The notes beneath the pieces were generated by a model. It was not told where the DNA came from. It saw only the letters and a program-made list of their open reading frames with translations, and ran no database searches. The position numbers were made by a program, and so were the translations under genes. This document shows, piece by piece, positions 1 through 16,960 of a DNA stretch of 64,000 nt (position 1 is the stretch's first letter; every line of letters starts with the position of its first letter). This stretch comes from Phycisphaeraceae bacterium (lineage in GTDB: Bacteria > Planctomycetota > Phycisphaerae > Phycisphaerales > Phycisphaeraceae). The stretch covers positions 248,001 through 312,000 of the forward strand of contig JADZCR010000003.1 of assembly GCA_020851465.1 (NCBI GenBank). Reading direction: 5' to 3'.

Positions 1-2
1 AC

Positions 3-824
3 GCGCAATTTCATCAAGCGGCGACAGCGACCGGGCGGCTGTCGTCCAACGGTCCGAACCTTCAGAACATCCCCATCCGTACCGAGGTAGGACGACAGAT
101 TCGTAAAGCATTCATCGCTGAGCCGGGAAATGTCCTCATCAGCGCGGATTATTCACAGATCGAGCTGCGCGTGCTGGCGCATCTGTCACAGGATCCTCGC
201 TTGACCGAGGCATTCGCCAAAGATCTCGATGTGCATACCGACGTAGCGGCGCAGGTGTTCGGCGTGCCTTTCGATCAGGTGACACGCGAGCAGAGAAATC
301 AGGCGAAGATCATCAACTTCGGCATCGTTTACGGCGTCAGTGCGTACGGTCTGGTGCGAAGGATCGAGGGACTCGACCTCGAATCGGCGAAAAAACTCAT
401 CGCTGACTACCGCACGCGATTCAAGGGAATCGACACCTTCCTCCAGGCGTGTGTGCAGGAGGCGATGGACAAAGGTTACGTGGAGACGATGGGCGGGCGG
501 CGGCGAATGATCCCCGAACTCCGCTCGGAAAACGGCGCACAGCGCAGCCTCGGTCAGCGACTGGCGATCAACAGCGTGGTGCAGGGCAGCGCAGCGGAAT
601 TGATCAAGCGCGCAATGGTGAATCTCCAGCGACGGATCGACGCCGACGGACTGACGATGATGATGCTGCTCCAGATCCACGACGAGCTTGTTTTTGAGTC
701 CCCTGCCGATGATGCGGAGAAAAATGCAGCAATCATCAAAGCGGAGATGGAGTCAGCCATGACGCTGCGGATACCGCTGAAGGTAGAAGTCGGCGTGGGG
801 AAGGATTGGCTGGAAACCAAGTAA
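3..824 (+). CDS. polA: DNA polymerase I, C-terminal polymerase domain (5' end outside window)
   Basis: Replication and repair polymerase that fills gaps and removes RNA primers. The frame is open from base 3, so only the last 273 residues are visible. The family A palm and fingers motifs are intact: TATGRLSS and NLQNIPIR near the start, motif A DYSQIELR (about 147-170), the O-helix with R, K, F and YG in RNQAKIINFGIVYG (about 291-335), and motif C IHDELVFE (about 675-698). The gene stops 13 bases before the convergent gene at 838. The exonuclease domains lie outside the window, so whether 3'-5' proofreading is retained cannot be judged. Family assignment is near certain. Confidence 0.97.
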   Translation, partial: AQFHQAATATGRLSSNGPNLQNIPIRTEVGRQIRKAFIAEPGNVLISADYSQIELRVLAHLSQDPRLTEAFAKDLDVHTDVAAQVFGVPFDQVTREQRNQAKIINFGIVYGVSAYGLVRRIEGLDLESAKKLIADYRTRFKGIDTFLQACVQEAMDKGYVETMGGRRRMIPELRSENGAQRSLGQRLAINSVVQGSAAELIKRAMVNLQRRIDADGLTMMMLLQIHDELVFESPADDAEKNAAIIKAEMESAMTLRIPLKVEVGVGKDWLETK

Positions 825-837
825 CCTCGCGGCGTGC

Positions 838-2493
838 TCAGGCTCGATCTCCCAGCTCGCCGAGGATTTGTTGAGTCAGTTCCCAGAAATGAGCCTCGCG
901 GAACGCCGTCGCCGCTCCCGGCAGTGAGCCATGACGCTGGCTATGGCTGCTCCAGTGGCTTTGTGCGCTGAATAGCCTCTGACGACATAATTCGGCGGCA
1001 TCCCGATCCTGCGATTTCAGGTAACGACGGTATGCGGCAAGTCCGGCCAGCAAGTCACGCAATGCCTCAAACAATGATTCGCCATAGCTCATCGTGTTAA
1101 TCAGCGGCTCAAGTATGCTGCGGGTGCGATCAGTCAGGTGCTGGCTCAGGGCGGCGCGGTCAGAATAAAGCCTCTCCACCGCAGACTGTTTTTCGGCAAC
1201 CACTTCCTCAAGTGTGTTTTCCGGTAACCGCTGAATGATGCGCCATGCTGCCCGCGCATCGACCAGGTCATCCTGTATCCAATCCGCGTTGGGATGCCAG
1301 GGGTCAGCCTTGGTGCGTGCAAACGGGCCGATGTAAAAGCCCTGCCGGATCACTTCCGGAGAATCCACCAGCGTCTGCTGGATCGCGGCAGCAATCGGCT
1401 CGCTGACGACGCCCAACCGCTCACCGATCCAGCGCTGCGCCAGGTCAAGCGGTGCGATGGAGGGATTTTCCGCCAGCAACGGGACGGAGAAGACATTGGC
1501 GTCGATCCACGACTCATTGCTGACGAAAGGCCCACCCCACCCGCCGCCGCGAACCCACGCCCAGAGTCCGGCGAAGTTGATGCGGCCGGCGATCTGTGCG
1601 AGTCCAGCCGCAGCGCCCTCTCCCGCCTCCGGATAGCCGTCGCGCCACAGCGGCACCTGCCAGTTGGGGATGCCGCCTTTGCCTTCAAACTCCCGCTGAC
1701 ATTGAAGCTCGTAGATGATCGGCCTCTTGCCGCACGCGAGGCTTGCCGGGTTCCAGTTCTGGTAACGCCAGAAGTCGGTCTGCGTGAACTTGAACGACAA
1801 CACAAAGCGATCGTCCGTCTCTTCGCCGGGTAACTGGGTCTGCACGCGGCGACAAAGCTCAACCGAGTCGTGCAGACCGTTGGGGCGGACATTCCACGCG
1901 CGGGCGATGAGCCGCTGCCCCCGCTTTTGCACGACGAGCTTATGGAAATGATGCAGAACTAGCGTGATGCGGTCAGCCCGGCCAAGCTGGCTGCACCGGG
2001 CACAATGCGGGGAATAGATATCGTTACCCACCAGATAGGGCAGACGTGACGCATCGTTGTCGCCGAAGCGCAGCACGACACCGCTGACACTCGGAAACTG
2101 CTGAAGGAGTGATTCGAGTGCCTGGCCGGATCGTTCCAGAGCCGCTTCACTGGCGGGACAGATCGTCGATGGCCGCTTGGTGCAGGTGAGGGTGCCGACG
2201 TTTCGATCCACCACATCCCGCGCCAGGCTCAGCGCGTCATAGGCGATATACACATCGAGCTTGGCGCGCACAGCCTGCTCGATCCGCTGACGGATGATTT
2301 CGAATTGCTGGGCGACCCATCGCCTCATTTCTCCCGAACTGATGCTGTCGGGAGAATCGACGCCGGACAGCCCGGTCGTTTCGTAAAGGACAACGGCGTT
2401 ATAACCCAGCGCGCGGAGTTGCAGCGGGTCGCGGTAACGGCTGCCGGCGAACGGCTCGCCGGGGTTGTCCAGAATCGTCGCCAGCTTGAGCAT
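838..2493 (-). CDS. Hypothetical protein, possible TIM-barrel glycoside-hydrolase-like
   Basis: 551 residues with no obvious signal peptide. The N-terminal half reads like a beta/alpha barrel of a glycosidase-type protein: LRALGYNAVVLYET, then KLDVYIAYDAL, then VSGVVLRFGDND, followed by a Cys pair in SPHCARC. Aromatic patches (DFWRYQNWNP, WAWVRGGGWGGP) could line a sugar-binding cleft. The layout recalls alpha-glucuronidase-like (GH67/GH115-type) proteins, but catalytic acids cannot be assigned by eye. It follows the membrane gene ending at 2575 by 81 bases on the same strand, so it may be the distal gene of the PilM operon or independent. The coding call is firm and the function is weak. Confidence 0.75.
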   Translation of the reverse strand: MLKLATILDNPGEPFAGSRYRDPLQLRALGYNAVVLYETTGLSGVDSPDSISSGEMRRWVAQQFEIIRQRIEQAVRAKLDVYIAYDALSLARDVVDRNVGTLTCTKRPSTICPASEAALERSGQALESLLQQFPSVSGVVLRFGDNDASRLPYLVGNDIYSPHCARCSQLGRADRITLVLHHFHKLVVQKRGQRLIARAWNVRPNGLHDSVELCRRVQTQLPGEETDDRFVLSFKFTQTDFWRYQNWNPASLACGKRPIIYELQCQREFEGKGGIPNWQVPLWRDGYPEAGEGAAAGLAQIAGRINFAGLWAWVRGGGWGGPFVSNESWIDANVFSVPLLAENPSIAPLDLAQRWIGERLGVVSEPIAAAIQQTLVDSPEVIRQGFYIGPFARTKADPWHPNADWIQDDLVDARAAWRIIQRLPENTLEEVVAEKQSAVERLYSDRAALSQHLTDRTRSILEPLINTMSYGESLFEALRDLLAGLAAYRRYLKSQDRDAAELCRQRLFSAQSHWSSHSQRHGSLPGAATAFREAHFWELTQQILGELGDRA

Positions 2494-2574
2494 CAGCGGG
2501 TTTTAACGTCGCAACAGAAACGCGGCAAACGCGCGTTCACGGGATTGGCAGATAAAAGGCGAAGTTACTGACCG

Positions 2575-4416
2575 TCACTCGGAACGCCCAGCCACCGACT
2601 CGACGGCCTGACTCCGCAGACGCTGACGCAGTGAGTCATCCTTATCCGCGGCTTGAGTACGGCTGAGCATCTTGCCGCTCTGACGATCCATGTAGAGCAG
2701 GCGCGTCGTCGTCTGGTTGAAGCCCAAACCGACGGCCGGGGCGTCAAAATCAATGTCCACCACGACCGCATTGACCGTCATGTCCACGGGTTTGCCGTCG
2801 TTAACACCGGCGATGGCGACGGACTTGCCGATCGGATCGCCGGGCTGAACGGTGAACTCCTGCGATCGCCACGCACCGTTGATGATGCGCCACACTTCGA
2901 CCTGCGCGTTCTGTGCGTTGCGATTACCGCCGGTAACAAAGAAGTAGCTTTCACGCTCGATGGTCACCGGCGAGGACCAAGCGTTGTGGAACTCGACAGC
3001 CGTTTCCGTGTCCGGGGCCGATTCGATCGCCAGCTTTTCAAAATACTGCTCGCGCTGTTCGGGACGCGGTTCACGGCGTTGGAAAAGCGGGTTGAGCACC
3101 GCAACAACCAGTCGATAGCGATAAGTCTGTCCCGGCTTGACGGTCACATCGTGTGCCCATACTTCGATACGGTCGCTCATCTCCGGTACCGACTCGACAG
3201 GGGCTTGGGCATCACGGCCACCCAGAAGCGGCCTGCCATCAAACGCAGGCGGAGAACCGGCTGGGGTATCCGCGACACGCTTGATTCCACGGATTGCATC
3301 CCTCTCGTTGATGCGGTCCCGAAGATCCTGCTGAAGCTTGTTTAGATCGCCGCCGGCTAAATCCGGCCTGGGTGCCGCCGCACGACCGGGTGGACGACGA
3401 TCCCTGGGCAGCGGAGAGGGCGCGGCTTCCGGCATCGCCGAGTGAAGCGGCGGAGTCGGTTCTGCGCCGCCGCTCTTATGCAACACTTTCACCCGCTCGC
3501 GCAACCGGTTGATTTCGATGTCGAGCTGCCTGAGTCGCTTCAACTGTTCTTCGCTGAGCTGAGGTGCAGCAGAGCTTCCCGGCGCAATCCATCCATCATC
3601 CACCAGCGGCGGAGGCGCTGGCTTGGTGATCTGATCCTGTTCAATACGAACCTGGCTGATCGCTTCGTCGGCGTCCGCACCCCAGTTGCCGTTGCGGAAA
3701 TGGAAGGCCGCATTGGGAAGAGCTGCGAGACGCTGCACCGATCCCCACTGGTTAGTGGACGGATCGAGCGCCTGCCGTTCGAGGATGACATCCGCGACCA
3801 ACAGCCGGCCGCGCCACCACGACTCAGGCATCCGCTGCGCTTCGGGAGCCGACGCCAGACGCCGACGCCATTCCTTCATGTCAAACTGCCCCGCCACACT
3901 GACGTAGCGGATATCACGGACATTATTCCCGCCCAGAAGTTCGTGCCATGCGTCAACCAGTTCCTTTGGTTCGGACGGGATCGCCACCACACCGAAACCC
4001 GTGCTGGTTGTCAGGTTGGTCGCTGGCGGCGGTGTGCCGACAAAGTATTCCGGACGTACCGGGGCTTCAGTCGGAACGACTCGCGGATCGAGGCCCGGCG
4101 GTCCAAGCGGCACCTCCAGCTTGGACTTACCCGTCAGCGAGCGCACCGCGCGGGCTTTGAAATCAGTCGTGTAAGAGGGCACGGTGATCTTGGGCAGCGG
4201 GCTTTCTTTCTTGCTGATCGCTCCGTCTAGCTTTTTCGTCGCCAGGTCGATTTCCTCGACGGTTTCGGTCGGAGTCATCATGCGGGCATTCAGCTCAACC
4301 TGATACGGCTGGCCCTGCACATAAAGCCAGATCACGATGACCGCCAGCACCAGCGCAACGCCGATGACGATCTTGTGAATGTGCTTGTCGATGAAGGTGA
4401 GATTTTTGATTTTCAT
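2575..4416 (-). CDS. Bitopic membrane protein of the PilM operon, function unknown
   Basis: 613 residues. A short cytoplasmic tail is followed by one membrane segment (about residues 15-33), so most of the protein should be periplasmic. Around residues 280-315 there is a charged heptad-like stretch (LSEEQLKRLRQLDIEINRLRE), then a proline-rich linker, a second helix (LNKLQQDLRDRINERD), and a C-terminal beta-rich domain beginning near WAHDVTVKPGQTYRYR. A membrane anchor, coiled coil and beta domain in third position after pilM suggests a PilO/PilP-like alignment subunit (inference from context; no clear sequence match). It starts 39 bases after the preceding gene stops, so co-transcription is likely. 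Confidence 0.8.
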   Translation of the reverse strand: MKIKNLTFIDKHIHKIVIGVALVLAVIVIWLYVQGQPYQVELNARMMTPTETVEEIDLATKKLDGAISKKESPLPKITVPSYTTDFKARAVRSLTGKSKLEVPLGPPGLDPRVVPTEAPVRPEYFVGTPPPATNLTTSTGFGVVAIPSEPKELVDAWHELLGGNNVRDIRYVSVAGQFDMKEWRRRLASAPEAQRMPESWWRGRLLVADVILERQALDPSTNQWGSVQRLAALPNAAFHFRNGNWGADADEAISQVRIEQDQITKPAPPPLVDDGWIAPGSSAAPQLSEEQLKRLRQLDIEINRLRERVKVLHKSGGAEPTPPLHSAMPEAAPSPLPRDRRPPGRAAAPRPDLAGGDLNKLQQDLRDRINERDAIRGIKRVADTPAGSPPAFDGRPLLGGRDAQAPVESVPEMSDRIEVWAHDVTVKPGQTYRYRLVVAVLNPLFQRREPRPEQREQYFEKLAIESAPDTETAVEFHNAWSSPVTIERESYFFVTGGNRNAQNAQVEVWRIINGAWRSQEFTVQPGDPIGKSVAIAGVNDGKPVDMTVNAVVVDIDFDAPAVGLGFNQTTTRLLYMDRQSGKMLSRTQAADKDDSLRQRLRSQAVESVAGRSE

Positions 4417-4455
4417 GGCTCAAAGGCCCTGGCCGCCGCGCGGCGGGTTGCGGAA

Positions 4456-5937
4456 TTAGGGAGCTGCTGCGGGAACCTCAGCTACGGAGAGCAATGACTT
4501 GACCTCTGCGGGCATCAGCCTCGCGGTCCAGTCGCGCAGCCAGAGCGTCTCAATAAGCATGTCAACTCGAACCACGTCACACGCACCGTAGATGTAGCCG
4601 GCTTCTGCCTCTTTGTACTCGTCCACGTCGGTGATCTTCATCTTCAACACCGTCATGAAGTTGACCTGCGCGAGGTTGTCAAAAAACTCCGGCATGCGAG
4701 TCGAGTCAATCATGATCGACAGCCACACATGGCGGACATCGTAGATGTCGTTGCTGCGCCGACCGGTGGGTGCGAGTGTAAAGTCGTCGGGAAGTTTTTT
4801 AGCGGCAGCAGACGCCAATGAGCCAGTGCGCTGGCGGCCCATTGCCGCTCCCGGAGGACCGCCGGGTGCTGCACCTGGGCCCATTCCGGGGTGCATCGCG
4901 CTCGGAGCGGGTGGCGGAGCCGACGCCCTCATCGGTGCCCCGCTGCTGCTGACCGAACCAGGCCCCTCCTGCCGGATGCCCCCGTTACCGGTGATGCCCA
5001 CGTAATCGGGGAGCACCTGGAGCGTGACCAGGCGTTTGATCGGCGACGTCATCACGTTTGCCGACGGTTCCATGACCTGATTGGTCAGAGCGATCGCCTG
5101 GAGAATGTCCTCGGTGATCCAGAGTTGCATCTGACCTTCCCACACCTCGACAGGGTCGGGCTGCGACGACTCGGATGCCCACTGCATGATGGTGAAGGGA
5201 TACGAAGCATCAGCCACGTTGCTGCGGTTTCCAGAGCTGGTCCCCACAGCACTGCGGCGAGACTGCTCCGTCGTCGCATAAATGTGGATGTTCTTGGCGT
5301 ATTCGATCAGGTATTCCGCCGTCTTTTGCCGACGCAGGTCACGCAGCTCCTCGTCCTCCTTTTGCGTGAGGATCGCGCCCTGCATGTTGCTGCTGCGGTA
5401 CTCTGCATCCACTTTGTCCACAAAGGACTTGACGTCAGCCATATCCGGCGCAGAACCGGCATCGAGCTGCGGGTGATCCGAGTTCGGCGAAAACTCCTCA
5501 AAAAACTTGGTGAACGATTCTTTGTAAACGTCCTTGGCGTAAATCGCCTTCGTCGCTGTGCCGCGGATATCAGGGAACAAGCCGTCCATCATCGGCGTGT
5601 GGTCCTGCGAATTGATCTTCACCGCGTAACCGTAGATGTCGGCAAACTCCTTGTTCATCGTGCCGTAGGCGACTTCCAGATCGTTGATCGCCGCCTGATT
5701 GATCGCGATGGTCTCCTGCCGCGGCACGTCATCCGCCTTTTCACCAGGAATTTCCACCGGCTGCACGAGATAGCGGCGGAGCTTTTCCTTTTCCGTCTTT
5801 CCGTAATCCACGACGTTCTGCGTGAAAGTAGAACCGCTCAGCTGGACGTAACCAATGATGCCCAGCGAAAGCACGATCACGACGATCGAAACGACGATGA
5901 TCCAGTTATCACGCGACCATGCGATGAGTCTTTTCAC
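4456..5937 (-). CDS. Bitopic membrane protein, probable type IV pilus/type II secretion alignment-complex partner
   Basis: 493 residues. The start is GTG, overlapping the pilM stop as GTGA, which implies translational coupling. One membrane helix lies at about residues 11-32, followed by a long extracytoplasmic part with helical stretches. A Gly/Pro/Met-rich low-complexity linker is at about 330-375, and a final domain of about 100 residues reads RRSNDIYDVRHVWLSIMID and onwards. The topology and position right after PilM-PilN resemble PilO, but the protein is more than twice the usual PilO length (about 200 residues). Assignment as a PilO-like partner is inference. The sequence supports only a coupled, membrane-anchored partner. 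Confidence 0.82.
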   Translation of the reverse strand: MKRLIAWSRDNWIIVVSIVVIVLSLGIIGYVQLSGSTFTQNVVDYGKTEKEKLRRYLVQPVEIPGEKADDVPRQETIAINQAAINDLEVAYGTMNKEFADIYGYAVKINSQDHTPMMDGLFPDIRGTATKAIYAKDVYKESFTKFFEEFSPNSDHPQLDAGSAPDMADVKSFVDKVDAEYRSSNMQGAILTQKEDEELRDLRRQKTAEYLIEYAKNIHIYATTEQSRRSAVGTSSGNRSNVADASYPFTIMQWASESSQPDPVEVWEGQMQLWITEDILQAIALTNQVMEPSANVMTSPIKRLVTLQVLPDYVGITGNGGIRQEGPGSVSSSGAPMRASAPPPAPSAMHPGMGPGAAPGGPPGAAMGRQRTGSLASAAAKKLPDDFTLAPTGRRSNDIYDVRHVWLSIMIDSTRMPEFFDNLAQVNFMTVLKMKITDVDEYKEAEAGYIYGACDVVRVDMLIETLWLRDWTARLMPAEVKSLLSVAEVPAAAP

Positions 5938-8120
5938 AGTTGGTCCTCCTTGCCGTCGGTCGAGGCTGCGGGCTGTGTCGTCGGGCCTTGACTCGGAGCA
6001 TCCAGCCCGCCAGCGGGGGCGGCCTTCGATCGCTCGCGTGAGATGGCTTCACCCTGCCGGGCATCCTGAAGATGGATCAGTTGTATCTGCCAGCGGAGTT
6101 CAAACCGGATTCCTCCTCCCACCGCTAGCCGATCCGGCGGAGGCGGAGGCAAGCCGACCACGTCCTTCGACACACTGACCGTCTCCGTCAAGGTCTGATT
6201 TCGCGTGTTGCGTCCTCCCAGCGGGCTTACCCTGCCGGCTGGCGCAACAGCCGGACTGCCGGAGAACATTTCGTTCTCACCGATTTTTTCAACCTTCTCC
6301 AGTTGGTTGGTCGCGATGATGCGGTACGGCCGATCTGATCGTTCCGCGTGTGCCTTGAGCCAGTTGATGTAGCGGTCGCCGACGAGCCGCACACCATCGC
6401 TGTTCGGGGTCGTGCCTTTGAGCGTGATGATAAATGTCGGCGGAGTCAGTCCCGACGGATTGGGAGCGGGTTTGACCGGCTGCATCGGCCCCGGCGTCGG
6501 CGCGGGAGGCGTCATTTCACTGCGACGTTTGCCGAAGATGTCCTGATAGCTCGCGCCCGCGGCGATGGACGGTTCTTCGGCTTCCGAAGCATGCGCACCC
6601 GCTGCTGCCGGGTTTCCAAACTGGTACTCCGCCGTAACCTCGGAAACATAAATCCGCAGCCGCTGGTTTCGCGGAATGTGCGCGATCTTTTCATAATCGT
6701 TAGTCAGAAGATCCGGCTGGAGTATTCGGCCGTGGTCGTCCTGCATCAGCCACAGGGCCGCCAGATCGAGATCGACCATCAGTTGAGGCCAGATGGTGCG
6801 ACCATCGAGGATGCGGCGGAGATTTTCGATCTTGATGCGCGGATCGGAACTCGTCTGCACCGTCTTCATCTTGCTTTCGAGACCACGCGCCTGATTGACC
6901 ACGCGGTCGGCATTCGCCTGAACCTCGGTCTTCTGAGTCTCGTAGCCGCTCTTTTCGACAAAGAGCCGTCCCCACGACGCCCCCGCCGCCGCCAGCAGCA
7001 CAATCGCCGCCGCCGCGAACCACGGCCGCTTCGACCGCCACAGACGCGACTTGATGATGTGTTGAGGCAAAAGATTTGCGTTGACCTGTTCGACTCCCAG
7101 CCCCTGCAACGCACAGCCGTAGGCCGTCGCCAGGTTCATCGCGTGTTCCGCGAAGTCGGCCTCCTGCTTGCCGTCCACTTTGATCCGCTTGAATCCGTTG
7201 GGTCTCTCGACCTCCATCTGGAGTTGCTGCTTGAGGAACTTCTGCATCCCCGGCAGACGGAAGGTCGAACCAAGCCCGATGATGCGGCTCAATTTCGCGT
7301 CGCGGTTGAGCGTTTGGTAATAGCCCAGCGAGCGCTGGATTTCCTGAACGAGGTCGGCAAACACCGGCCGCATCGCCTGGAAAATCTGCCTCGCGTATTT
7401 GCTGGTGGAGGCTTCGCGTTTGAGCTTTTCCGCTTTGGGGAACGAGAGCTTGAACGCACGGACGAGCGCCTCGGTGAAGTTGTTGCCGCCGATAGGCAGC
7501 GTCCGCAGCCAGAGTTGACCGTTCTCCACGATGATGACATCGGTACTCGACGTGCCGATGTCCATGATCATCAGTCCCGGTGAGTCGGGGGTGAGATCCA
7601 TATCGTTCGCCAGCGCGTTGTAGGCCGCCAGCGGCGAAAGCGTGATGGCGTCGATATTGATGCCGACGTTGCGATAGTTGGTCAGAAATTGCATCACGCG
7701 ATCCTTGGTGATCGCAAAGATGCCGACCTCAACGTCGGGCGAGTCAGGCTGGGAAAACTGCTGATAGTCCCACTCGACCTGATCGATGGGGAAGGGAATC
7801 TGCTGGACTGCTTCAAACTTGACGATGTCGCCGATCTTCTTGGGATCGACAGGCGGGAGCTTGACGAAGCGGGCAAACGCCATATGCCCGGGCACGGAGA
7901 CGACGACGTTGGAGTTGGCGAGTTTATGCCGCGAGAGAAATTGATCGAGGTTGACCTGGATGGCTTCCTCGATGTTGAGGTCGGGAGTGCTGAGGACTTT
8001 CTTGAACGGGAGGATGTCGTAATCGGTGACGACCAGGTCTGCTCCCTGACGGGTGAGGCGAATGGCTTTGATGGCGTTGGCGCCGACCTCGATTCCCCAG
8101 GCGTCGTTATTTTTCGACAT
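5934..8120 (-). CDS. pilM: PilM-type ATPase fused to a PilN-like membrane domain
   Basis: 728 residues, about twice the usual PilM length. Residues 1-340 are an actin-fold PilM: GIEVGANAIKAIRL at the N-terminus, VSVPGHMAFARFVKLP, a second phosphate loop MIMDIGTSSTDVIIV (about 184-198) and GLGSTFRLPG (about 283-292). Residues 346-353 (QVNANLLP) are followed by a membrane helix at about 365-386. In ordinary systems, PilM binds a short NLLP-type motif at the PilN N-terminus, just before its membrane helix. Here that motif and helix continue in one chain, so this looks like a PilM-PilN fusion. The rest is periplasmic with proline-rich linkers. It heads an operon with two large bitopic proteins, probably an inner-membrane platform for pilus or secretion. 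Confidence 0.9.
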   Translation of the reverse strand: MSKNNDAWGIEVGANAIKAIRLTRQGADLVVTDYDILPFKKVLSTPDLNIEEAIQVNLDQFLSRHKLANSNVVVSVPGHMAFARFVKLPPVDPKKIGDIVKFEAVQQIPFPIDQVEWDYQQFSQPDSPDVEVGIFAITKDRVMQFLTNYRNVGINIDAITLSPLAAYNALANDMDLTPDSPGLMIMDIGTSSTDVIIVENGQLWLRTLPIGGNNFTEALVRAFKLSFPKAEKLKREASTSKYARQIFQAMRPVFADLVQEIQRSLGYYQTLNRDAKLSRIIGLGSTFRLPGMQKFLKQQLQMEVERPNGFKRIKVDGKQEADFAEHAMNLATAYGCALQGLGVEQVNANLLPQHIIKSRLWRSKRPWFAAAAIVLLAAAGASWGRLFVEKSGYETQKTEVQANADRVVNQARGLESKMKTVQTSSDPRIKIENLRRILDGRTIWPQLMVDLDLAALWLMQDDHGRILQPDLLTNDYEKIAHIPRNQRLRIYVSEVTAEYQFGNPAAAGAHASEAEEPSIAAGASYQDIFGKRRSEMTPPAPTPGPMQPVKPAPNPSGLTPPTFIITLKGTTPNSDGVRLVGDRYINWLKAHAERSDRPYRIIATNQLEKVEKIGENEMFSGSPAVAPAGRVSPLGGRNTRNQTLTETVSVSKDVVGLPPPPPDRLAVGGGIRFELRWQIQLIHLQDARQGEAISRERSKAAPAGGLDAPSQGPTTQPAASTDGKEDQL

Positions 8121-8152
8121 TGGCGATTCCTTACAGGTTCAGACCCGCCGAC

Positions 8153-8180
8153 TTTATTCGTTTTTCGCTTCCACTGCCAA
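8153..8180 (-). promoter_or_regulatory. Candidate sigma70-type promoter of the pilM operon
   Basis: On the minus strand TTGGCA (8180-8175) and AATAAA (8158-8153) are separated by 16 bases, about 35 bases upstream of the pilM start codon. The first box matches the consensus at five of six positions and the second at four of six. An AAGGA ribosome site sits about 7 bases before the ATG at 8120. Assigned by eye only. Confidence 0.35.
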
Positions 8181-8538
8181 CCTTCAACAACCACCCTCCA
8201 CGCCGTTTAGCCGACGGTACGGTGATCGTGCTGCGTGCTGAACGTCATTGAAAGCGTTGTGGATGGAAATCCGGGTGAAACCCGGGTCGCGCCGCGCCAT
8301 GCCCAGGACATCGCGACGATACGGTAGCGACACATTATTTAACCCGCACAGCTAATCCGGGTCAAGATTTCATCCGCCTGCGCAGGTCAGTGGAAAACCG
8401 ATTGAGTCAACAGCCTGCCTGCCTATCCCGATCACCGCTCCTCGATAGGTCAGCCTGAGTCGGCTGATACGCGAGCGCATCGACGCCTGAGAACCAAAAT
8501 AATTGAGTCGAATGATCTGATGCGGACATGCGCAGCGT

Positions 8539-8567
8539 TTGCTTACGATGTTTTCAGCCGATATAAA
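8539..8567 (+). promoter_or_regulatory. Probable promoter of tRNA-Ala
   Basis: TTGCTT (8539-8544) and TATAAA (8562-8567) are separated by exactly 17 bases and lie 18 bases upstream of the mature tRNA 5' end. The spacing and the strong -10 box fit a sigma70 promoter starting near 8574. The -35 box matches only in its TTG. Confidence 0.55.
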
Positions 8568-8584
8568 TGAGGTTTCCCCATAGC

Positions 8585-8657
<73 letters not shown>

Positions 8658-8751
8658 TTCGAGATCACACTTCCGCATGAAATTTTGCAGTCAGGCCGCG
8701 CCGCCATGCGGCTGTGCTGAACCTGTCAATCTGCGACGATAATGGCGACTC

Positions 8752-10911
8752 ATGGTGCGGTTCAGATCCATCGCTCCCGTACTGATTCTCCTGCTCGTCG
8801 GCGGCGCGATCTACAGCAACAGCTTTTCCGGGGTGATGGTCTTCGATGACCATCAGGTGCTCATCGACAACTCGATGATCCGTCATCCCCTGCAAATCTG
8901 GCTTCATCCCGCAGGCGTGCAGGAAACCGGACTTTCAGGGCGACCGGTCACAGCTTTCACCTTCGCACTCAACTATCAAATCCACGGCCTGAAAGTCTGG
9001 GGCTACCATCTGGTCAATCTCGTCATTCATCTGGCAGCGGCCTTGACGCTGATGGGCATTACCCGACGGACGCTGGACCTGCCGCGGTTTGCCGGACGCT
9101 ACGCCGCGTCCAGTCGCTGGCTCGCGTTGACCATCGCCCTTTTATGGATGGCTCACCCGCTGCAAACCAGCGCGGTCACTTATGTCAGTCAGCGACTCGA
9201 AATCCTGATGGGGCTTTGCTATCTCCTGACGCTTTACTGCGTGATCCGCTCGCATGACTCATCAAACAGCTCCCAACGGAAAGGGTGGTCCGTAGCGGCT
9301 CTGATCGTCTGCGCGGTCGGCATGGGCAGCAAGGAAGTCATGGTCACCGCGCCGCTGGTGGTTTTCATTTATGACTGGATTTTTCTTTCAGGAAACTTCC
9401 GCGAGTTGATTCGCCGACGATGGCGGCTGCATCTTTCCCTGACAGCTACGTGGGTGATCCTCGCCCTGCTCGTGTGCTACTCGCCGCGGGGGCAATCCGT
9501 CGGGTTTCATTTCGATGACCTGACCGCCCTTGATTACCTCCAGACGCAGACCAGTTCGATCCTGACATACTTGAAGCTGTCTCTCTGGCCTCACCCGCTG
9601 ATTCTCGACTACGGCCCCGCGGATTTCGGCGTGCCGATCCTCCGTCATTTCACTCAGTATGCGCCGCGCGGCCTCATCATCGTCAGCCTGCTCATCGCCG
9701 TCGTGCTCGCGCTGCGTTACCGGCCTGCATGGGGTTTTCCGGGCGTCTGGTTTTTCCTGATCCTGGCTCCCTCATCGAGCTTCCTGCCCATGCGCACGGA
9801 AGTCATCGCGGAACATCGGATGTACCTCTCCCTTATCGCGGTGATCGTGCTGGCGGTGATGGCGGCCTATCACGTCGGCGAACGGTTGTTCCGATCAACT
9901 TCCGTTGACTCCGCCCACGCATCCTCCGGCTCAACCCTGCCGTCGATGACGGCCTTCATCCTCGTCGCGGCAGCCGTCTCGGTGCTGGGTGCTCTGACCT
10001 ATATGCGAAACTGGGATTACCGCTCGGAGCTGGTGATGTGGGAAGACGTGGTTGCAAAGCGACCCGGCAACTCCCGCGCATTCGATGCTGTCGGCCTGGA
10101 GTATTCACAAATCAACCGACTACCCGAAGCTCGAACCGCGTTACTTTGCGCGCTGGCGATCCGGCCGGACTTTCAATACACGCAGGGGTTACTCGGCTAC
10201 GTGCTGATGCGGCAAGGCGATCTGGACACGGCGATGATGTATCTCGAAAAGGCGAGTCTCAATCAAAAGCCGCTGGACAACCGCACCACCGCTGCTGCGT
10301 GGTATCAGTACGGCACACTGCTGCAAAAAAAGCAGCAGCCTCGGCAGGCTCTTGAGGCCTTTGAGCGTGCGTTGCGCCTCGATCCGGACCTCGCACAAGC
10401 GCACAACGGTGCGGGGGTCGCGCTGACATTGCTGGGGAATCGAAGTCGCGCCATTAGCGAGTTTGAAGCGGCACTTGCTTCCCGCCCCGGCTATGACGAA
10501 GCACGTTTTAACCTGGCGGTCTCTTACGGCGAGAGCGGGCAGACCCGACAGGCCATCGAACATCTGCGAGATATTCTCGGTCGGCACCCGAAGCATGGTC
10601 TTGCGCTGGCGAACCTCGCCTGGGCCTACGCCACCGCGACTGACCCGGCTGTCCGTTCCCCGCAATCCGCCATCGAGTTCGCCGATCTGGCCGAACAACA
10701 GCCCAGCGGAAAGATCGCTTTGACCTATGCTGCGCGAGCCAAAGCCTATGGCGAGCTTCGGCGTTTTAACGAGGCGATTCGCGACGCACAGCAGGCGTCC
10801 AAGCTGGCATCCGTTGCAGACGATCCGTCGCTGCTGAATCAGCTCAATTCCTGGCTGGATGCTTTCCGACAGGGGCAGGTTCCCGCGGACACACAACCCG
10901 CCCTGCCATAG
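8752..10911 (+). CDS. Polytopic membrane protein with C-terminal TPR repeats (TMTC-like)
   Basis: 719 residues. The first 420 or so are hydrophobic, with many predicted membrane helices. The opening, with a lumenal-type FDDHQVLIDN segment followed by SGRPVTAFTFALNYQIHGL and GYHLVNLVIHL, is typical of bacterial relatives of the eukaryotic TMTC proteins (GT-C-like membrane proteins with TPRs). From about residue 430 to the end the sequence is TPR-type (for example AFDAVGLEYSQINRLPEART and WYQYGTLLQKKQQPRQALEAF). An acidic pair near the N-terminus fits a GT-C-type metal or donor site, but activity is inference. It is transcribed alone, downstream of the tRNA. Related bacterial proteins are mostly uncharacterised. 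Confidence 0.85.
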   Translation: MVRFRSIAPVLILLLVGGAIYSNSFSGVMVFDDHQVLIDNSMIRHPLQIWLHPAGVQETGLSGRPVTAFTFALNYQIHGLKVWGYHLVNLVIHLAAALTLMGITRRTLDLPRFAGRYAASSRWLALTIALLWMAHPLQTSAVTYVSQRLEILMGLCYLLTLYCVIRSHDSSNSSQRKGWSVAALIVCAVGMGSKEVMVTAPLVVFIYDWIFLSGNFRELIRRRWRLHLSLTATWVILALLVCYSPRGQSVGFHFDDLTALDYLQTQTSSILTYLKLSLWPHPLILDYGPADFGVPILRHFTQYAPRGLIIVSLLIAVVLALRYRPAWGFPGVWFFLILAPSSSFLPMRTEVIAEHRMYLSLIAVIVLAVMAAYHVGERLFRSTSVDSAHASSGSTLPSMTAFILVAAAVSVLGALTYMRNWDYRSELVMWEDVVAKRPGNSRAFDAVGLEYSQINRLPEARTALLCALAIRPDFQYTQGLLGYVLMRQGDLDTAMMYLEKASLNQKPLDNRTTAAAWYQYGTLLQKKQQPRQALEAFERALRLDPDLAQAHNGAGVALTLLGNRSRAISEFEAALASRPGYDEARFNLAVSYGESGQTRQAIEHLRDILGRHPKHGLALANLAWAYATATDPAVRSPQSAIEFADLAEQQPSGKIALTYAARAKAYGELRRFNEAIRDAQQASKLASVADDPSLLNQLNSWLDAFRQGQVPADTQPALP

Positions 10912-10966
10912 CTGCGATTGCTGTCACCGCCGTTCCTTGGCGCGGAAATCGATAATCTGTTATCCC

Positions 10967-13174
10967 ATGAATACCAACTGGATTGACCAGCTTCGGCTGC
11001 CTGCGATAGATGCTGAACCCGGCGCGACTGTCGCGCTCGCCTCGGTGCCGGTACCGCGTGAGGGGCCGGTGAGTGTACGGTTCAAGGGTGTTCCGTCGCA
11101 CGCGGTGACGCTGGCGCGCTGGCCGGGAGTTGACGGCCCGGGCGCCGCAAAGCGATTGCTGGTCGTCGGCGTTTCCGACAAACCTTTGAGTGACCAGATC
11201 ACGCTCGAATCCGGCGAGAGCGCCATCAAGCCTGCGACACTTCCCGCATGGCGCGTCGGCATCCTTGAGGAAAAAAAGATCGGCGTGGCGATGCGCGAGG
11301 TCAATGAGTTGGTCATCACCCACGCCGGCCGGGAAATCGGCCTGCGGCTGGGTATCGAAAAAGCGGACGGTCCGCGCTGGTGGGAGTGGCTGACCGTCGA
11401 GGAAGAATGGGCCGGCCCGTCGTGCAAAGCGATCCACGCAGCAGGTTACGTCAGCACCATCGACGTCACCGACGAAACCTTCAACCCTGCACGATACAAC
11501 TCCTGCCACTGGTTTCACCGGCAACACTGGCTCTTTTGCGAAGTCCGCATCTGGCTTTTTTCCAACGGCCTGGCTCGCGTGACCGCACGACATGTGAACA
11601 ACCGTTTCTTCGATCAGGGACGCGACCTCGAAGATATCGTACCCGTGCTCGGCTTCCGCACGGTAAACACTTCGCTGAATGAAAAACTCGACGGTCAGCG
11701 TCACGATTTCGCATTGGGCAATGTCCAGCTCGACATTGCGCGATCAACCCATCTGGTCAGTGCGGAACATCCCGGCAAACTGGCGACGCAAAACGGCGTC
11801 GTGATCTACCAGCCCTACACGGGTGCGGAAATCGAATTGGGCGAACACGGCACACCCGCGGTCGAATGGCGGCTGGCGTCCTCCGAACGGCGCATGTGGA
11901 AAGGGATGGCTCGCACGGTCGAGTTTGATCTTTCGCTTGCCGACGCACCGATCCGCACGCGACGGTTCGTCGCACCGCAGGCATGGCTGGCGTATTGCGG
12001 CGCGCTGTGGCCGGATGGCGCACTCCCGGCCCGCGGGTCGCTGAATGAAACCGCCGACCGCATGGTGGACTTCGCCATGGCCTCATCACTCAAGCCCTCC
12101 GGCAGATTTTACGAGGCATCGTCAGGCGGAGATGGCGAGCATTCCCACGGCCTGATGCGCGGAGCGTACCGCATGAGGCGGCGCGACCTCTACGACGCGG
12201 CGATTCGTCACGCCTACGCCTGTGCCGACATCGGCATGGATCATGCGGATTTCACGATCTTCATTTCCGGTCAGGTGCGCGGAGCTATTTCGCTGGTGCT
12301 TCAGCGCGTCATCGGCATGCTGGCGGCCTATCTCGAAAACGGAGATCCATACCTGCTTGAGTGCGCGGAAGCGGTCGCGGACACCGCCTATGCGATCGAC
12401 CGATCCAACTGGCCGCGACGCAGCTATGGCCGCGACGCTGCGTATATCCGCAGCTTGACGCATCTCTATGAGGTGACAGGTGAGCGGTTCTATCTTCGCC
12501 GCGCCGGTGCAGCGTGTCGGCGGGCGGCACAGTGTCAAACACCCGCGGGCTACTTCACCGATCAGGGCGGAGCTGTCGGAGCGCACGGCCACCTCAACGA
12601 GATCGTCAAACCGTGGATGAACAGCATCCTGACCGAAGCATTTGTGGACTACCTTGAACGAGCCGGCAGCGATCCGGTCGTGGAGAATGCTGTCCGGCGT
12701 GTCGGAGAGTGGCTGCTGAAAGTTCAATTAACAGATGCCGACGGCGTGTATTGGGCGTATGAACTGGCGTGGGGGCAGAACACGACCGCCCCGTACCAGA
12801 AATGGAACCCCGATAAGCCTCCTGAAAAACATCCCGTCGGCGATGTGCATCTGGATTACAACGCGCGGACGCTGCTCTGGCTCTCAAAGCACACGGGTGA
12901 CCCACGCTTCGCCCGCGCCTGGCAGGGAACCTACGAACGGTTCTTCATCCGCAAAAAGCAACTTGGCGGCGTCTATGGCGGCGTCAAGACCGCGGAAAAT
13001 TACCCCTGGCATGAGGCTCACCTCTGGAACGCACGCTGGACACCGCAAGGCGTGGTGCTCGATCCGATGCTCGACCTGATTAACGTCGGGCGCGAGGCCA
13101 CCATCGAGCTGCCGCTGGGTGGACAGATGACGGTCCTTCGCACCGCCGCGGGGGTGGAAACAAAAACTGGGTAA
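10967..13174 (+). CDS. Hypothetical six-hairpin glycosidase-like protein
   Basis: 735 residues from the ATG at 10967; an upstream in-frame start at 10859 would overlap the previous gene and was not used. The N-terminal half is beta-rich, with aromatic stretches such as CHWFHRQHWLFCEVRIWLF. The C-terminal half (from about residue 360) is helical with repeated WLL-, YL- and Y-type helices, as in (alpha/alpha)6 barrel glycosidases and lyases: HAYACADIGMDH, FYLRRAGAACRRAAQCQ, GEWLLKVQL. This order, beta sandwich then alpha barrel, is common in enzymes acting on uronic-acid or arabinose polymers. No catalytic residue could be assigned. No signal peptide is evident, so a cytoplasmic role on imported oligosaccharides is possible (inference). 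Confidence 0.75.
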   Translation: MNTNWIDQLRLPAIDAEPGATVALASVPVPREGPVSVRFKGVPSHAVTLARWPGVDGPGAAKRLLVVGVSDKPLSDQITLESGESAIKPATLPAWRVGILEEKKIGVAMREVNELVITHAGREIGLRLGIEKADGPRWWEWLTVEEEWAGPSCKAIHAAGYVSTIDVTDETFNPARYNSCHWFHRQHWLFCEVRIWLFSNGLARVTARHVNNRFFDQGRDLEDIVPVLGFRTVNTSLNEKLDGQRHDFALGNVQLDIARSTHLVSAEHPGKLATQNGVVIYQPYTGAEIELGEHGTPAVEWRLASSERRMWKGMARTVEFDLSLADAPIRTRRFVAPQAWLAYCGALWPDGALPARGSLNETADRMVDFAMASSLKPSGRFYEASSGGDGEHSHGLMRGAYRMRRRDLYDAAIRHAYACADIGMDHADFTIFISGQVRGAISLVLQRVIGMLAAYLENGDPYLLECAEAVADTAYAIDRSNWPRRSYGRDAAYIRSLTHLYEVTGERFYLRRAGAACRRAAQCQTPAGYFTDQGGAVGAHGHLNEIVKPWMNSILTEAFVDYLERAGSDPVVENAVRRVGEWLLKVQLTDADGVYWAYELAWGQNTTAPYQKWNPDKPPEKHPVGDVHLDYNARTLLWLSKHTGDPRFARAWQGTYERFFIRKKQLGGVYGGVKTAENYPWHEAHLWNARWTPQGVVLDPMLDLINVGREATIELPLGGQMTVLRTAAGVETKTG

Positions 13175-13292
13175 TGCAATAACGGAACGATTCCTCACGT
13201 TGTTGGGGAATGTGTTTGAAGTGATGGTTCGCACCAACAGCGATCGCCGCCGAGCGATTGCCTTTAGCCGGAAGCCCGGCAGGAGCAATGGT

Positions 13293-13742
13293 ATGAAGAG
13301 TTGGAAGGTTGTTGCGCTGACACTGGCGTTGGGTCTGGGAATGGGCTCTCTCGCCCTCGCCAATCAAGACGCGAACGGTGCAGGCGATAAAACGCACAAC
13401 ACCAAGGAAAAAGATCACGACGGTCACAAGGACAAACAGCCCCGGAAGGCCCGCTCCGGCAAGGTTGTCGGCGTGTCGGGAACCTCCATCACCATCGAGG
13501 TCGGCCCGAAAAACAATAAGACACAGGTCGTCATCGAAACCAACGCAGAAACCAAATTCAAGGTCAACGGCAAGGAGGGCACCATCGATGACATCAAGGA
13601 AGGCATGTGGCTACTCGCCAAGCCCCTTGATGGCGTCGCCACTCACGTGTTGGCACGCGATCCGGGCAACAAAAAAGACAAGAACAAAGACAAGGAAAAG
13701 CATGAAGATCATGAACATGACCACGATCATGAGCATGATTAA
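13293..13742 (+). CDS. Small secreted DUF5666-like protein with His/Asp-rich tail
   Basis: 149 residues from the ATG at 13293, chosen because AGGAG lies 7 bases upstream and a signal peptide follows directly (MKSWKVVALTLALGLGMG, cleavage after ALA). The middle part (KVVGVSGTSITIEV, then VVIETNAETKFKVNG, then IDDIKEGMWLLAKPL) is a small beta domain of the DUF5666 kind. Lys/Asp/His-rich segments flank it, and the last 16 residues are mostly H, D and E, a likely metal-binding tail. A terminator follows. Role unknown; periplasmic metal binding is an inference from composition. Confidence 0.8.
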   Translation: MKSWKVVALTLALGLGMGSLALANQDANGAGDKTHNTKEKDHDGHKDKQPRKARSGKVVGVSGTSITIEVGPKNNKTQVVIETNAETKFKVNGKEGTIDDIKEGMWLLAKPLDGVATHVLARDPGNKKDKNKDKEKHEDHEHDHDHEHD

Positions 13743-13787
13743 AAGTAAAGTATCCTCCCCGCTGTTTTGGGGATTCGTGTAAATGAG

Positions 13788-13822
13788 AACCCACCGGTGT
13801 CATGAGATGCCGGTGGGTTTTC
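13788..13822 (+). terminator. Intrinsic terminator after the DUF5666-like gene
   Basis: A perfect 10-bp stem AACCCACCGG (13788-13797) pairs with CCGGTGGGTT (13810-13819) across a 12-base loop and runs into a T-rich tail. It lies 46 bases after the stop codon and before the MFS gene, which supports starting that gene at 13925. Confidence 0.8.
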
Positions 13823-13924
13823 TTGTCGATGGATGCGGGCTGTGGTTTAATCTGCGGCAACACATCGCGGCTGCCCGGCGTCCCGCCTGTCTATGCGGTG
13901 CCTGGCCGTCGAGGATCCATCCCT

Positions 13925-15457
13925 ATGGCCCATCCCGTCCTCGCCGTACCGGAAACTCAATTCAGCTCACGCCAGATTCGCCAGGTCATTCTCGCCTCGG
14001 CAGTCGGCACGATGATCGAGTGGTACGACTTCTACATTTTCGGAAGTCTCGCCACCATCATCTCACCTCTCTTTTATCCCAAGGGCAACGACACGCTCGC
14101 CCTGATCGCCTACCTCTCCACCTTCGCGGTCGGGTTCGTTGTCCGTCCGTTCGGGGCGCTGTTTTTCGGACGTATCGGTGATCTGGTCGGCCGCAAATAC
14201 GCCTTTCTGGTCACGCTGCTGATTATGGGAGGCGCGACCGCGTTGGTCGGGCTGCTGCCAACCTACGCAACCATCGGAATGGCGGCACCGATCATCCTCC
14301 TGCTGATCCGCATTCTTCAGGGGCTGGCGCTGGGCGGGGAATACGGCGGAGCGACGGTCTATGTCGCTGAGCATGTTCCCGACGCTCGACGCGGCTTTTA
14401 CACCAGCTTCATCCAGATCACCGCCACGCTGGGCCTTTTCGTCTCGCTGGCTGTGATCCTTTCCGTACAGGCGTCGATGAGCAAGGAAGCGTTTGAATCA
14501 TGGGGATGGCGAGTGCCCTTCCTCATCTCGATTCTCCTCGTGGCGATCTCGCTCTACATCCGGCTGCGAATGAAAGAGTCGCCCATCTTCCAGCACATCA
14601 AGAGTTCGGGCATGACATCGGCACGGCCGCTGACCGAAGCCTTTACCCAATGGGACAACCTCAAGCGCGTGCTCGTCTCACTCTTTGGCGCGACCGCCGG
14701 ACAGGGAGTGGTCTGGTACACGGGTCAGTTCTACGCGCTTTTTTATCTCCAGACGATTCTGAAGGTCAACGCCCAGGCAGCCAACTACATCATCGCGGCG
14801 GCACTGCTGCTGGGCATGCCGTTCTTCGTTGTGTTCGGCGCGCTGTCAGATCGAATCGGACGTAAAAAAATCATGATGATCGGCTGCCTGCTGGCGGCAC
14901 TCACCTACATTCCGATCTATCAAACCATGCGCAATGTCGCTGGCTCAGGCGTCGTGACCGTCAGCACCACCACCGATCCGCTTACCGGTGCTCACAGAGT
15001 CGTGCCGCAGTCTTTCAAGGAAGGAGACAGCTCAACACTGGTACCTGCACAGGAAGTCCTCTCGCACAGCGAGCCACTCATGCTGATCGCCAACCCGGTC
15101 GCGTGGCTGCTTGTCGGTCTGGTCTTCATCCAGGTGATTTTCGTCACGATGGTCTATGGTCCGATCGCGGCTTACCTCGTCGAAGCGTTCCCCGCACGCA
15201 TCCGCTACACCGCCTTGTCGCTGCCCTACCACATCGGCAACGGTGTCTTCGGCGGGCTGCTGCCGGTGATCGGGCTGGTTCTGGTCGCAAGGACCGGAAA
15301 CATCTACGCCGGCCTCTACTACCCCATCGTCATCGCGGCTGTCACCTTCGTCGTCGGCTCGATTCTGCTTCCTGAGACGCGACACATCCTCATCTGGAAG
15401 GAATTGGAAACCGACAATCCCAACGGTGCCCGCAGTGATATCGAGGGGCCGGCCTGA
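13925..15457 (+). CDS. MFS transporter, metabolite:H+ symporter (MHS) family
   Basis: 510 residues with about 12 membrane helices. The start at 13925 is preferred over 13802 because the longer version begins inside the terminator and lacks hydrophobic start features. Family signatures are clear: SAVGTMIEWYDFYIFG in helix 1, the MFS loop GRIGDLVGRKYAFL, RILQGLALGGEYGGA in helix 4, and a repeat of the loop, GALSDRIGRKKIMMIG, in the second half. MHS members (ProP, KgtP, ShiA type) import organic acids or osmolytes with protons. A loop of about 60 residues between the later helices is longer than usual. Placement before a UxaE-type epimerase suggests a sugar acid as substrate (inference). Confidence 0.9.
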   Translation: MAHPVLAVPETQFSSRQIRQVILASAVGTMIEWYDFYIFGSLATIISPLFYPKGNDTLALIAYLSTFAVGFVVRPFGALFFGRIGDLVGRKYAFLVTLLIMGGATALVGLLPTYATIGMAAPIILLLIRILQGLALGGEYGGATVYVAEHVPDARRGFYTSFIQITATLGLFVSLAVILSVQASMSKEAFESWGWRVPFLISILLVAISLYIRLRMKESPIFQHIKSSGMTSARPLTEAFTQWDNLKRVLVSLFGATAGQGVVWYTGQFYALFYLQTILKVNAQAANYIIAAALLLGMPFFVVFGALSDRIGRKKIMMIGCLLAALTYIPIYQTMRNVAGSGVVTVSTTTDPLTGAHRVVPQSFKEGDSSTLVPAQEVLSHSEPLMLIANPVAWLLVGLVFIQVIFVTMVYGPIAAYLVEAFPARIRYTALSLPYHIGNGVFGGLLPVIGLVLVARTGNIYAGLYYPIVIAAVTFVVGSILLPETRHILIWKELETDNPNGARSDIEGPA

Positions 15458-15664
15458 TGCGCTGAGTGTTCGTCCGTGCTGTCGCCGACGAAGGCTCGGA
15501 TCAAAACGTCGAACGCCTATCGCCTCGTTTACCGATTCCGCACTCTTTCCGAAAGATGTGCATTGGACGCACTCGCGGCTGTTCGCTAGCTTGATCCGCC
15601 CGTAGTTGCATTGATGATCGCAATTAGATCCGTTCACCCTCAGCAACGCGCCCGGAGTCTTCCC

Positions 15665-16960
15665 ATGCCCGTACAAAAAGCGTCCACACTCGGCCTCGAA
15701 CCCTCCTTTGGTTTTGGTGACCGTCTGGGTCTGGCGACACCCGGCCACCTCGAAGCCCTCAAGCGCGAAGGCGGCTCCGGAGCCGGTAGCATCAAGCCCA
15801 TTTTCGCCCAGCAGTCCATCCGTGAAATGACCCGCACGAAGCGCACGCCCAAGCAAGTGATGGCTGCTGCGGCCAAAGCCCTCAAAGCGGAAAAATACAC
15901 GGATGTCTGGGGTGCCGACGCGGACCATCTCAAGACTGAGGAGGACGTGGAATACACCGCCGCTGCGGGTTTTGTGTTCTTCACGATTGACCCCTCCGCG
16001 CACGTGGACACACACGCGGACAGCTACGACAAGGCGACACTGGACGCGAAGTTTGCCCAGATCAAGAGCCAGACGCCGTGGGTTCGCAGCTATGAGGGGA
16101 AATCCGTCGCCATCAAGGATGGGCCGACGATCCGGTTTGAGAGTTCCTCCGTCAAGCGTGCCGCGGTGAAGTACGGCCGCGCCATCGCTCACACCGCCCG
16201 CATCGCCGCACACATCGCCAAGGTGATGAAGACCCGCGGTACCGAAGGCACAGCCTATGAGATCGAGCTGTCCGTCGATGAAACTCCTGAGCCGACGACG
16301 CTCGCGGAGCATTACATCATCGCGGACCAGCTTGGCCCGCGGAGCATCAACCTCGTCAGCCTCGCGCCGCGGTTCATCGGCGACCTTGAAAAAGGCGTGG
16401 ACTACAAGGGCAATCTCAAAGCCCTGGAAAAATCGCTCAACGATCACGCAGCCATCGCACGTCAGCTTGGCCCTTACAAGCTGAGCCTGCACTCAGGATC
16501 GGACAAGATTTCGATGTACCGCCTGTTCGCACGGGCGACACGAGGCATGTTCCACGTCAAAACGGCGGGGACGAGCTATCTGGAAGCCCTGCGGGTCGTG
16601 GCGCGTCACGACGCCAAACTCTTTCGTGCGATCGTCGATTTTGCGCGCGGTCGTTACGACACGGACAAGGCGACTTATCACGTCTCGGCGACTCTCGCCG
16701 ACGCAGCCCCGCCGTCCGAGGTCGCACGCATCAAGCAGTTGGAGCAAATCTATCTCCAGGATTGGTCCAGCGTGGCCAAAGGCAAGGGGTTCACCAACCC
16801 AGGCAGGCAGATCATGCACTGCACCTTCGGCTCGGTGCTGACGGACAAGAAGTTCGGCCCGGCGGTTCGGGCGGTCCTCGAAGCGCATCCCGACACGCAC
16901 CGTGAAGTTCTCGCGGATCACTTCGCGCGACATCTTGCGGCCCTGCGCAGCGGCATGTAA
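15665..16960 (+). CDS. uxaE: Tagaturonate epimerase family protein (UxaE-type)
   Basis: 431 residues from the ATG at 15665, with GGAG 7 bases upstream. UxaE-type enzymes interconvert D-tagaturonate and D-fructuronate in uronate catabolism. Features seen: GFGDRLGLATPGH near the N-terminus, FVFFTIDPSAHVD with HVDTHAD acidic/His ligands, EIELSVDETPEPTT, and the family hallmark LHSGSDKISMY at about residue 275. The C-terminal RQIMHCTFGSVL also fits. The protein sits between the MHS symporter and a large esterase-like protein on the same strand. An older name for relatives is simply conserved hypothetical, so exact substrate choice is uncertain. Confidence 0.8.
   Translation: MPVQKASTLGLEPSFGFGDRLGLATPGHLEALKREGGSGAGSIKPIFAQQSIREMTRTKRTPKQVMAAAAKALKAEKYTDVWGADADHLKTEEDVEYTAAAGFVFFTIDPSAHVDTHADSYDKATLDAKFAQIKSQTPWVRSYEGKSVAIKDGPTIRFESSSVKRAAVKYGRAIAHTARIAAHIAKVMKTRGTEGTAYEIELSVDETPEPTTLAEHYIIADQLGPRSINLVSLAPRFIGDLEKGVDYKGNLKALEKSLNDHAAIARQLGPYKLSLHSGSDKISMYRLFARATRGMFHVKTAGTSYLEALRVVARHDAKLFRAIVDFARGRYDTDKATYHVSATLADAAPPSEVARIKQLEQIYLQDWSSVAKGKGFTNPGRQIMHCTFGSVLTDKKFGPAVRAVLEAHPDTHREVLADHFARHLAALRSGM

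Follow-up and report, generated by a model that had tools for sequence, protein, structure and literature searches.

Overall architecture of P1

The stretch of DNA analysed here, which we call the window, is 64,000 nucleotides long and covers positions 248,001–312,000 of contig JADZCR010000003.1 from a Phycisphaeraceae bacterium; labels beginning with C denote contigs of the same genome. The gene P1 (5934..8120, minus strand, ATG start) encodes a protein of 728 amino acids and heads a three-gene unit. Profile matches, a structural model and homologues confirm that PilM and PilN are joined in this one chain. An actin-like PilM domain leads through an NLLP motif, the N-terminal motif of PilN, into a membrane helix, as the original prediction for this DNA had proposed.

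The PilM domain is formed by residues 1–341 (7098..8120, minus strand, as for all features of P1). The family PF11104 (PilM_2) covers residues 9–339 (E 2.1e-38, 132.6 bits against a cut-off of 27), and P1 scores 164.5 bits with TIGR01175 (pilM), above the curated cut-off of 133. The AlphaFold model of P1 has a mean predicted local distance difference test score (pLDDT) of 82.8, with values above 90 in all 10-residue blocks of the PilM part except the first. Solved PilM structures are the top structural matches of the model, with 2ych at Z 35.3 (root-mean-square deviation (rmsd) 2.7, 325 residues aligned) and 3jc8 at Z 35.1. G9, G13, D187, G189, G211, G212 and G284 are invariant among the relatives of P1, and these residues may line a nucleotide site.

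The NLLP motif is read directly at residues 349–352 (7065..7076). A transmembrane segment is predicted at approximately residues 370–388 (6957..7013): the most hydrophobic 19-residue window of P1 begins at residue 370 (mean hydropathy 1.72), and the model has a single helix from 353 to 388, followed by a helix from 394 to 424 (coiled coil). The membrane helix required by the original prediction is thus found by both hydropathy and model. P1 shares with PilN the (I)NLLP motif ahead of a membrane helix and the single helix followed by a coiled coil.

The N-terminus of PilN normally fills a groove of PilM in trans. The structure 5eou contains PilM and PilN residues 1–12 within a single chain, and 5eou_B aligns with the P1 model at Z 31.8 (rmsd 3.7, 340 residues aligned). 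A structure prediction had been proposed as a check on the docking of the motif; the alignment spans model residues 4..353 and so reaches NLLP, the range giving the first and last aligned residues only. The profile of P1 relatives aligns with 5eou through the NLLP of each. Taken together, the two alignments place the motif of the natural chain at about the position it has in the construct.

Conservation of the junction

The named loci are the best 80 of at least 554 confirmed, mostly labelled Phycisphaerae, Phycisphaerales, Phycisphaeraceae or Planctomycetota. The P1 alignment (A2) contains the window sequence and 68 of the 80 named P1s; 11 open-ended sequences and L065, which is truncated at its start, were left out. 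The Asn of NLLP is present in all 69 sequences and the Pro in 66, W361 is invariant, and a 19-residue stretch with mean hydropathy of at least 1.4 follows the motif in 63. Among 28 rows of separate PilMs from relatives and from this genome (27 different, as L196 repeats L161), none has the motif and none has a hydrophobic stretch in the last 60 residues. The motif and helix are therefore not a chance feature of P1. The original prediction had named relatives of similar length without a PilN-like motif as the contrary case; none arose, the relatives keeping the motif. Of 20 loci sampled from 16 further planctomycete families, 16 have the Asn and all have the Pro; some show a classical PilN form, such as VNLLP (L187, L194) or INLLP (L193).

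An apparent fusion would also result if a sequencing or frame error had run two genes together. The match in one genome (G052) is divided between two frames; for the window itself nothing points this way, the frame being single and open, and the phylum matches listed, which extend to about 3e-61, all lie in open frames of at least 536 amino acids. As relatives have open fused frames, this explanation is refuted, and we give it practically no weight.

The family tree of PilM domains suggested in the original prediction was also calculated. It holds 13 of the 69 A2 sequences, the 20 loci of other families and 26 of the 28 separate PilMs, after removal of L213 (short) and L196 (a copy of L161). 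A single branch, with a Shimodaira–Hasegawa-like approximate likelihood ratio test support of 100, divides the 33 fused rows from the 26 separate ones, and the stems are long. The tree was rooted at the midpoint after a quick search, and it gives a clean split rather than a dated origin.

Periplasmic part

Approximately residues 443–681 (6078..6794) form the predicted periplasmic part. The secondary structure of the model gives α 443–457, β 491–500, β 562–571, α 576–590, β 599–602 with 607–612, and β 671–681. This α-β-β/α-β-β order, taken from the model of the whole chain, fits a PilN-like domain, the cores of PilN and PilO having α-β-β twice according to the part of the published description available to us (PMC5805733). 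The elements are separated by long loops of low confidence, with pLDDT below 50 at 510–527, 529–538, 540–550 and 620–656 as well as in the tail. From residue 342 onward, P1 matches a profile of separate PilNs over 173 columns with a probability of 70.8 (E 3.8e-5); the controls P2 and P3 reach 8.2 and 5.2. The profile was built from 23 rows in which the motif was found (22 different, those of C1 and L196 being identical), one of which, L197, was trimmed at the wrong place. The match supports the stretch from junction to periplasm as a whole and not the periplasmic part by itself.

The three-gene unit

P1 is followed on the minus strand by P2 (4456..5937, GTG start), an open reading frame for 493 amino acids with an N-terminal hydrophobic segment. 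P2 is the conserved second gene, stands in the position of PilO and may be distantly like Amuc_1100 of Akkermansia. The stop of P1 overlaps the start of P2 in the sequence GTGA (5934..5937, minus strand), as the original prediction had noted; read directly here, the overlap is exactly 4 bases long in 53 of the 67 loci with both genes. A gene beyond the original prediction, P3 (2575..4416, minus strand, 613 amino acids, N-terminal helix), is the conserved third member and stands in the position of PilP.

P2 is found in 67 and P3 in 64 of the 80 named loci; at the 13 loci lacking P2, the available sequence stops within about 0.6 kb of the end of P1. The flanks of the unit are irregular, the commonest other recurrent neighbour occurring at 24 of the 80 loci with its median place on the opposite strand. 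Alignments were made of the window P2 with 64 of the 67 P2s (A3) and of the window P3 with 58 of the 60 usable P3s (64 found). Five of the 65 P2 members match Amuc_1100_fam (NCBIfam NF038287) at E ≤0.1, the best at 1.3e-4, and the P2 of the window has no match to this family. One of 59 P3 relatives matches Amuc_1099_fam weakly (E 0.028). Four proteins in the P2 position and three in the P3 position, all from distant families, matched none of the Amuc profiles and matched no Pfam family convincingly.

The model of P3 (pLDDT 82.6) has a helix at residues 8–34. Its best VIA match is a chain of the CNTN3–APP complex at Z 7.2, within the range that the tool calls common. A PilP/GspC-type assignment, that is, a small β-sandwich homology region (HR) domain, is not claimed for P3, since its model matched no known fold convincingly.

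Two further genes flank the unit. A protein of 719 amino acids with C-terminal tetratricopeptide (TPR) repeats is encoded at 8752–10911 on the plus strand, divergent from P1. After P3, positions 838–2493 (minus strand) encode a protein of 551 amino acids with no convincing family match; at E 1e-4 no homologue of it turned up among the 80 named loci, and it therefore lies outside the conserved unit.

Distribution in the phylum

Matches to P1 or PilM are found in 283 of 294 genomes of the phylum, a number whose weak end mixes fused and separate PilMs and so is not a count of fusions. Another search, of relatives, gave matches in 60 of 61 genomes, with G019 and G024 having a weak match of the separate type only. 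Nearby matches to the P2 profile occur at 12 of the 20 loci of other families, and to the P3 profile at 13. Six of the 20 (L181, L187, L189, L191, L192, L193) encode, 1.2–3.7 kb downstream of P1 and on its strand, a secretin of 848–1237 amino acids of the type encoded on C17 of this genome. This amounts to a pilMNOPQ-like order in which M and N are fused. The PilB, PilT and PilC of C3 (see below) have no match in the 20 loci at E 1e-6, so the unit is not accompanied there by motor genes of this kind. The fusion recurs in many planctomycete families and is not peculiar to this genome.

Other pilus genes of the genome

Two secretins are recognised in the genome by PF00263. One, on C1, lies within a cluster that holds a separate PilM, a separate PilN and motors. 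The other, on C17 (99319–102696, plus strand; 3319–6699 of locus L163), has 1126 amino acids and by domain matches joins TPR repeats to a C-terminal secretin domain. Compared with the six secretins found downstream of P1 in other families, the C17 secretin scores 119–192 bits (all six) and the C1 secretin 21–51 bits (five). The C17 protein, being far closer to the operon-borne secretins by sequence, is read as the probable displaced partner of P1–P3. Its best NCBIfam match is MshL (91 bits); with Amuc_1098_fam (NF042912) it reaches 69.1 bits (E 2.1e-19), below the cut-off of 750.

Separate PilM and PilN proteins are encoded at two further loci, on C1 (L161; 379 and 221 amino acids) and C6 (L162; 423 and 264 amino acids). 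A C1-type PilN match (E ≤0.001) is present in 39 of 41 genomes searched. On C3, about 26–30 kb from P1–P2–P3, a cluster at 213.5–224.6 kb (7568–18609 of locus L159) encodes PilB-PilT-PilB-PilC and then four or five pilin-like proteins, named from domain matches and from reading of the sequence. Searches of C3 for a further PilM, a secretin or a C1-type PilN gave no match; PilO was not searched for. The nearness of the cluster, this absence and the pattern of PilC provide a lead, and only a lead, that ties P1 to these motors.

The co-occurrence of P1 with the TPR-secretin and the C3-type PilC is mixed. Ten genomes have no P1 match even by profile: five of family f56, four of family f43, and G042. 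The f56 genomes have no strong match to the TPR-secretin (none in three; 9.0e-8 and 2.8e-6 in two), and their PilCs are at most 36% identical to that of C3. The f43 genomes have TPR-secretin matches of about 1e-30 to 3e-36 and PilCs at 39–42%. Genomes bearing P1 carry a C3-type PilC at 46–57% identity (G037, G046, G077, G139, G168, G275) or, in G144, a PilC in two pieces at 48 and 65%. The P1 match of G275 is partial, was found by profile only and is on the same contig as the secretin of that genome. G037, G046 and G050, sampled from the genus of G042, do carry P1; G042 may have lost P1 in nature, or its assembly may be missing the region.

Comparison with known systems

P1 is a PilM-class fusion related to Amuc_1101/MUL2B of the gut bacterium Akkermansia, described in the accessible part of PMC13174399 as a PilM protein encoded within a locus for mucin utilisation. 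The match to the Amuc_1101 profile (NF045709; 244 bits, E 3.8e-72) aligns residues 1–452 of P1 with positions 1–458 of 608 and extends through PilM, NLLP and helix, and all 69 members of A2 match the same profile. P1 scores below the equivalog cut-off (244 against 650) and is longer than the 608-position model. The likeness to Akkermansia was judged through NCBIfam family profiles. Excerpts of two papers describe the Amuc_1098–1102 cluster as pili-related (PMC5332112) and Amuc_1098 as a secretin that contains TPR repeats (PMC4960237). The C17 secretin resembles this Akkermansia PilQ (PMC4960237, in the same excerpt) in joining such repeats to a secretin domain. If the gene numbers follow the chromosome, Amuc_1101, 1100, 1099 and 1098 have the order P1, P2, P3, secretin. 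Unlike in the Amuc_1098–1101 cluster, the secretin in this genome lies apart from the unit. In the open-licence PMC literature we found no description of Amuc_1101 or of a planctomycete protein as a PilM–PilN fusion.

With the separate PilM and PilN of type IVa pili, P1 shares the PilM fold (2ych, 5eou, 3jc8) and the order of the PilN N-terminus, NLLP and then helix; it differs in having both in one chain. GspL, PulL and EpsL of type II secretion have the same layout, a single chain made up of a cytoplasmic domain of the actin type, one helix through the membrane and, in the periplasm, a part resembling PilN; PulL is called a PilM–PilN fusion in the available portion of PMC10191384. P1 could be a GspL that works, with the rest of the unit, in type II secretion, a reading that gains from the common layout and from a sub-threshold TIGR01709 match (16.9 bits; three of 69 members at E ≤0.1). 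The cut-off of that family is 65, and membership was rejected on score, whereas the pilM cut-off is exceeded. Furthermore, PilMs are the best structural matches, the chain retains at its junction the NLLP of a once-separate PilN, and P2, P3 and, elsewhere, a secretin (six of 20 loci) follow it. The lack of matches to the C3 motor proteins at the 20 other loci likewise counts against GspL. We consider this assignment improbable and retain P1 as a PilM-class fusion.

Discussion

We propose that a machine resembling a type IV pilus probably has P1, P2 and P3 as its inner-membrane platform and the C17 TPR-secretin as its outer part. The actin-like domain of P1 would be cytoplasmic, with its own NLLP occupying the PilM groove in cis, and the chain would cross the inner membrane and end in the PilN-like periplasmic domain. 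P2 as PilO and P3 as PilP would complete an inner-membrane ring with P1, the C17 secretin would provide the ring in the outer membrane, and a motor of the PilB/PilT type would dock on the PilM domain; which motor docks, and on which substrate the machine acts, are equally conjectural. Such a fusion would fix PilM and PilN at 1:1 and leave no free pool of PilM, so signals of PilM (nucleotide state, docking of PilB or PilT) may pass directly through the membrane. The GspL of type II secretion systems has likewise been proposed to transmit signals directly. The rearranged inner-membrane platform suggested by the original prediction is supported, with two corrections: as a kind the PilM–PilN fusion is already known from PulL (PMC10191384, as far as its available text goes), and the arrangement recurs in many families.

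Several observations weigh against this proposal. The docking of NLLP is read from an alignment range rather than from coordinates. Taken by itself, the periplasmic part is not similar in sequence to the PilN profile (probability 0.8), and PF05137 (PilN) is absent from the matches (E ≤1 for P1, E ≤0.1 for the 69 members), so the likeness of this part to PilN rests on predicted topology; the solved PilN of T. thermophilus has its elements arranged differently, according to the portion of PMC5805733 that treats them. Compared with known folds, the P3 model reaches a best Foldseek E of 0.059, with no convincing PilP, GspC or other fold. The P2 profile matched in nine of 78 genomes across the phylum, and outside the class P2 is therefore mostly known by position. 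Where a secretin is present, the profiles recognise partners at just two of the six loci, L181 (P3) and L191 (P2 and P3); the intervening genes at L187, L189, L192 and L193 are identified by where they lie and by a hydrophobic segment at the N-terminus, and L189 has only one gene between P1 and secretin. The likeness to Akkermansia is weak by sequence for P2 and P3 and unspecific for the secretin: the Amuc_1098 match of C17 is mainly to the shared secretin domain, and the C1 secretin matches as well (56 bits). No pilin, motor or secretin was recognised among the open reading frames of window positions 1–16000, five of which were scanned against family libraries. Finally, G042 (100% complete, two contigs) is without P1 and P2, yet keeps the TPR-secretin and a C3-type PilC (57%).

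The last two points would suit a fusion that has lost its role in a pilus and that serves, as an actin-like protein of the membrane, only for regulation or as a scaffold: no recognised motors or pilins lie beside the unit, and one genome keeps secretin and PilC without it. We think this very improbable, given that P1 is kept widely in the phylum beside P2 and P3, and beside a secretin at six of the 20 sampled loci, and that the seven residues from G9 to G284 listed above are invariant in its relatives. A role of P1–P3 in a pilus-like platform remains our preferred reading.

An analogy with the Akkermansia locus MUL2, and with the fibres that bind dextran at crateriform structures (PMC5394234, in the part available), makes it plausible, if speculative, that the machine captures polysaccharides. 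A wider proposal, which we offer tentatively and regard as doubtful, is that P1–P3, the C17 TPR-secretin and the C3 PilB-PilT-PilB-PilC-pseudopilin cluster make up one machine, the planctomycete counterpart of MUL2. It would be the membrane-bridging crateriform complex with its dextran-binding fibres and would import polysaccharides to the periplasm, and the M–N fusion would be old and common to planctomycetes and Verrucomicrobiota.

P1 would provide a natural in-chain form of the PilM–PilN contact that crystallographers engineered, and it is a second case, besides GspL, of the same parts being joined. Some planctomycetes import polysaccharides by a mechanism called unknown in the accessible text of PMC11131199. 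A tentative link has been drawn between uptake and the crateriform structures with their dextran-binding fibres; the available part of the report (PMC5394234) names no machinery. The conserved platform and its candidate secretin bring named genes to this question. The unit points to a pilus-like machine so far unstudied, which may be kin to the mucus-sugar machine of Akkermansia.

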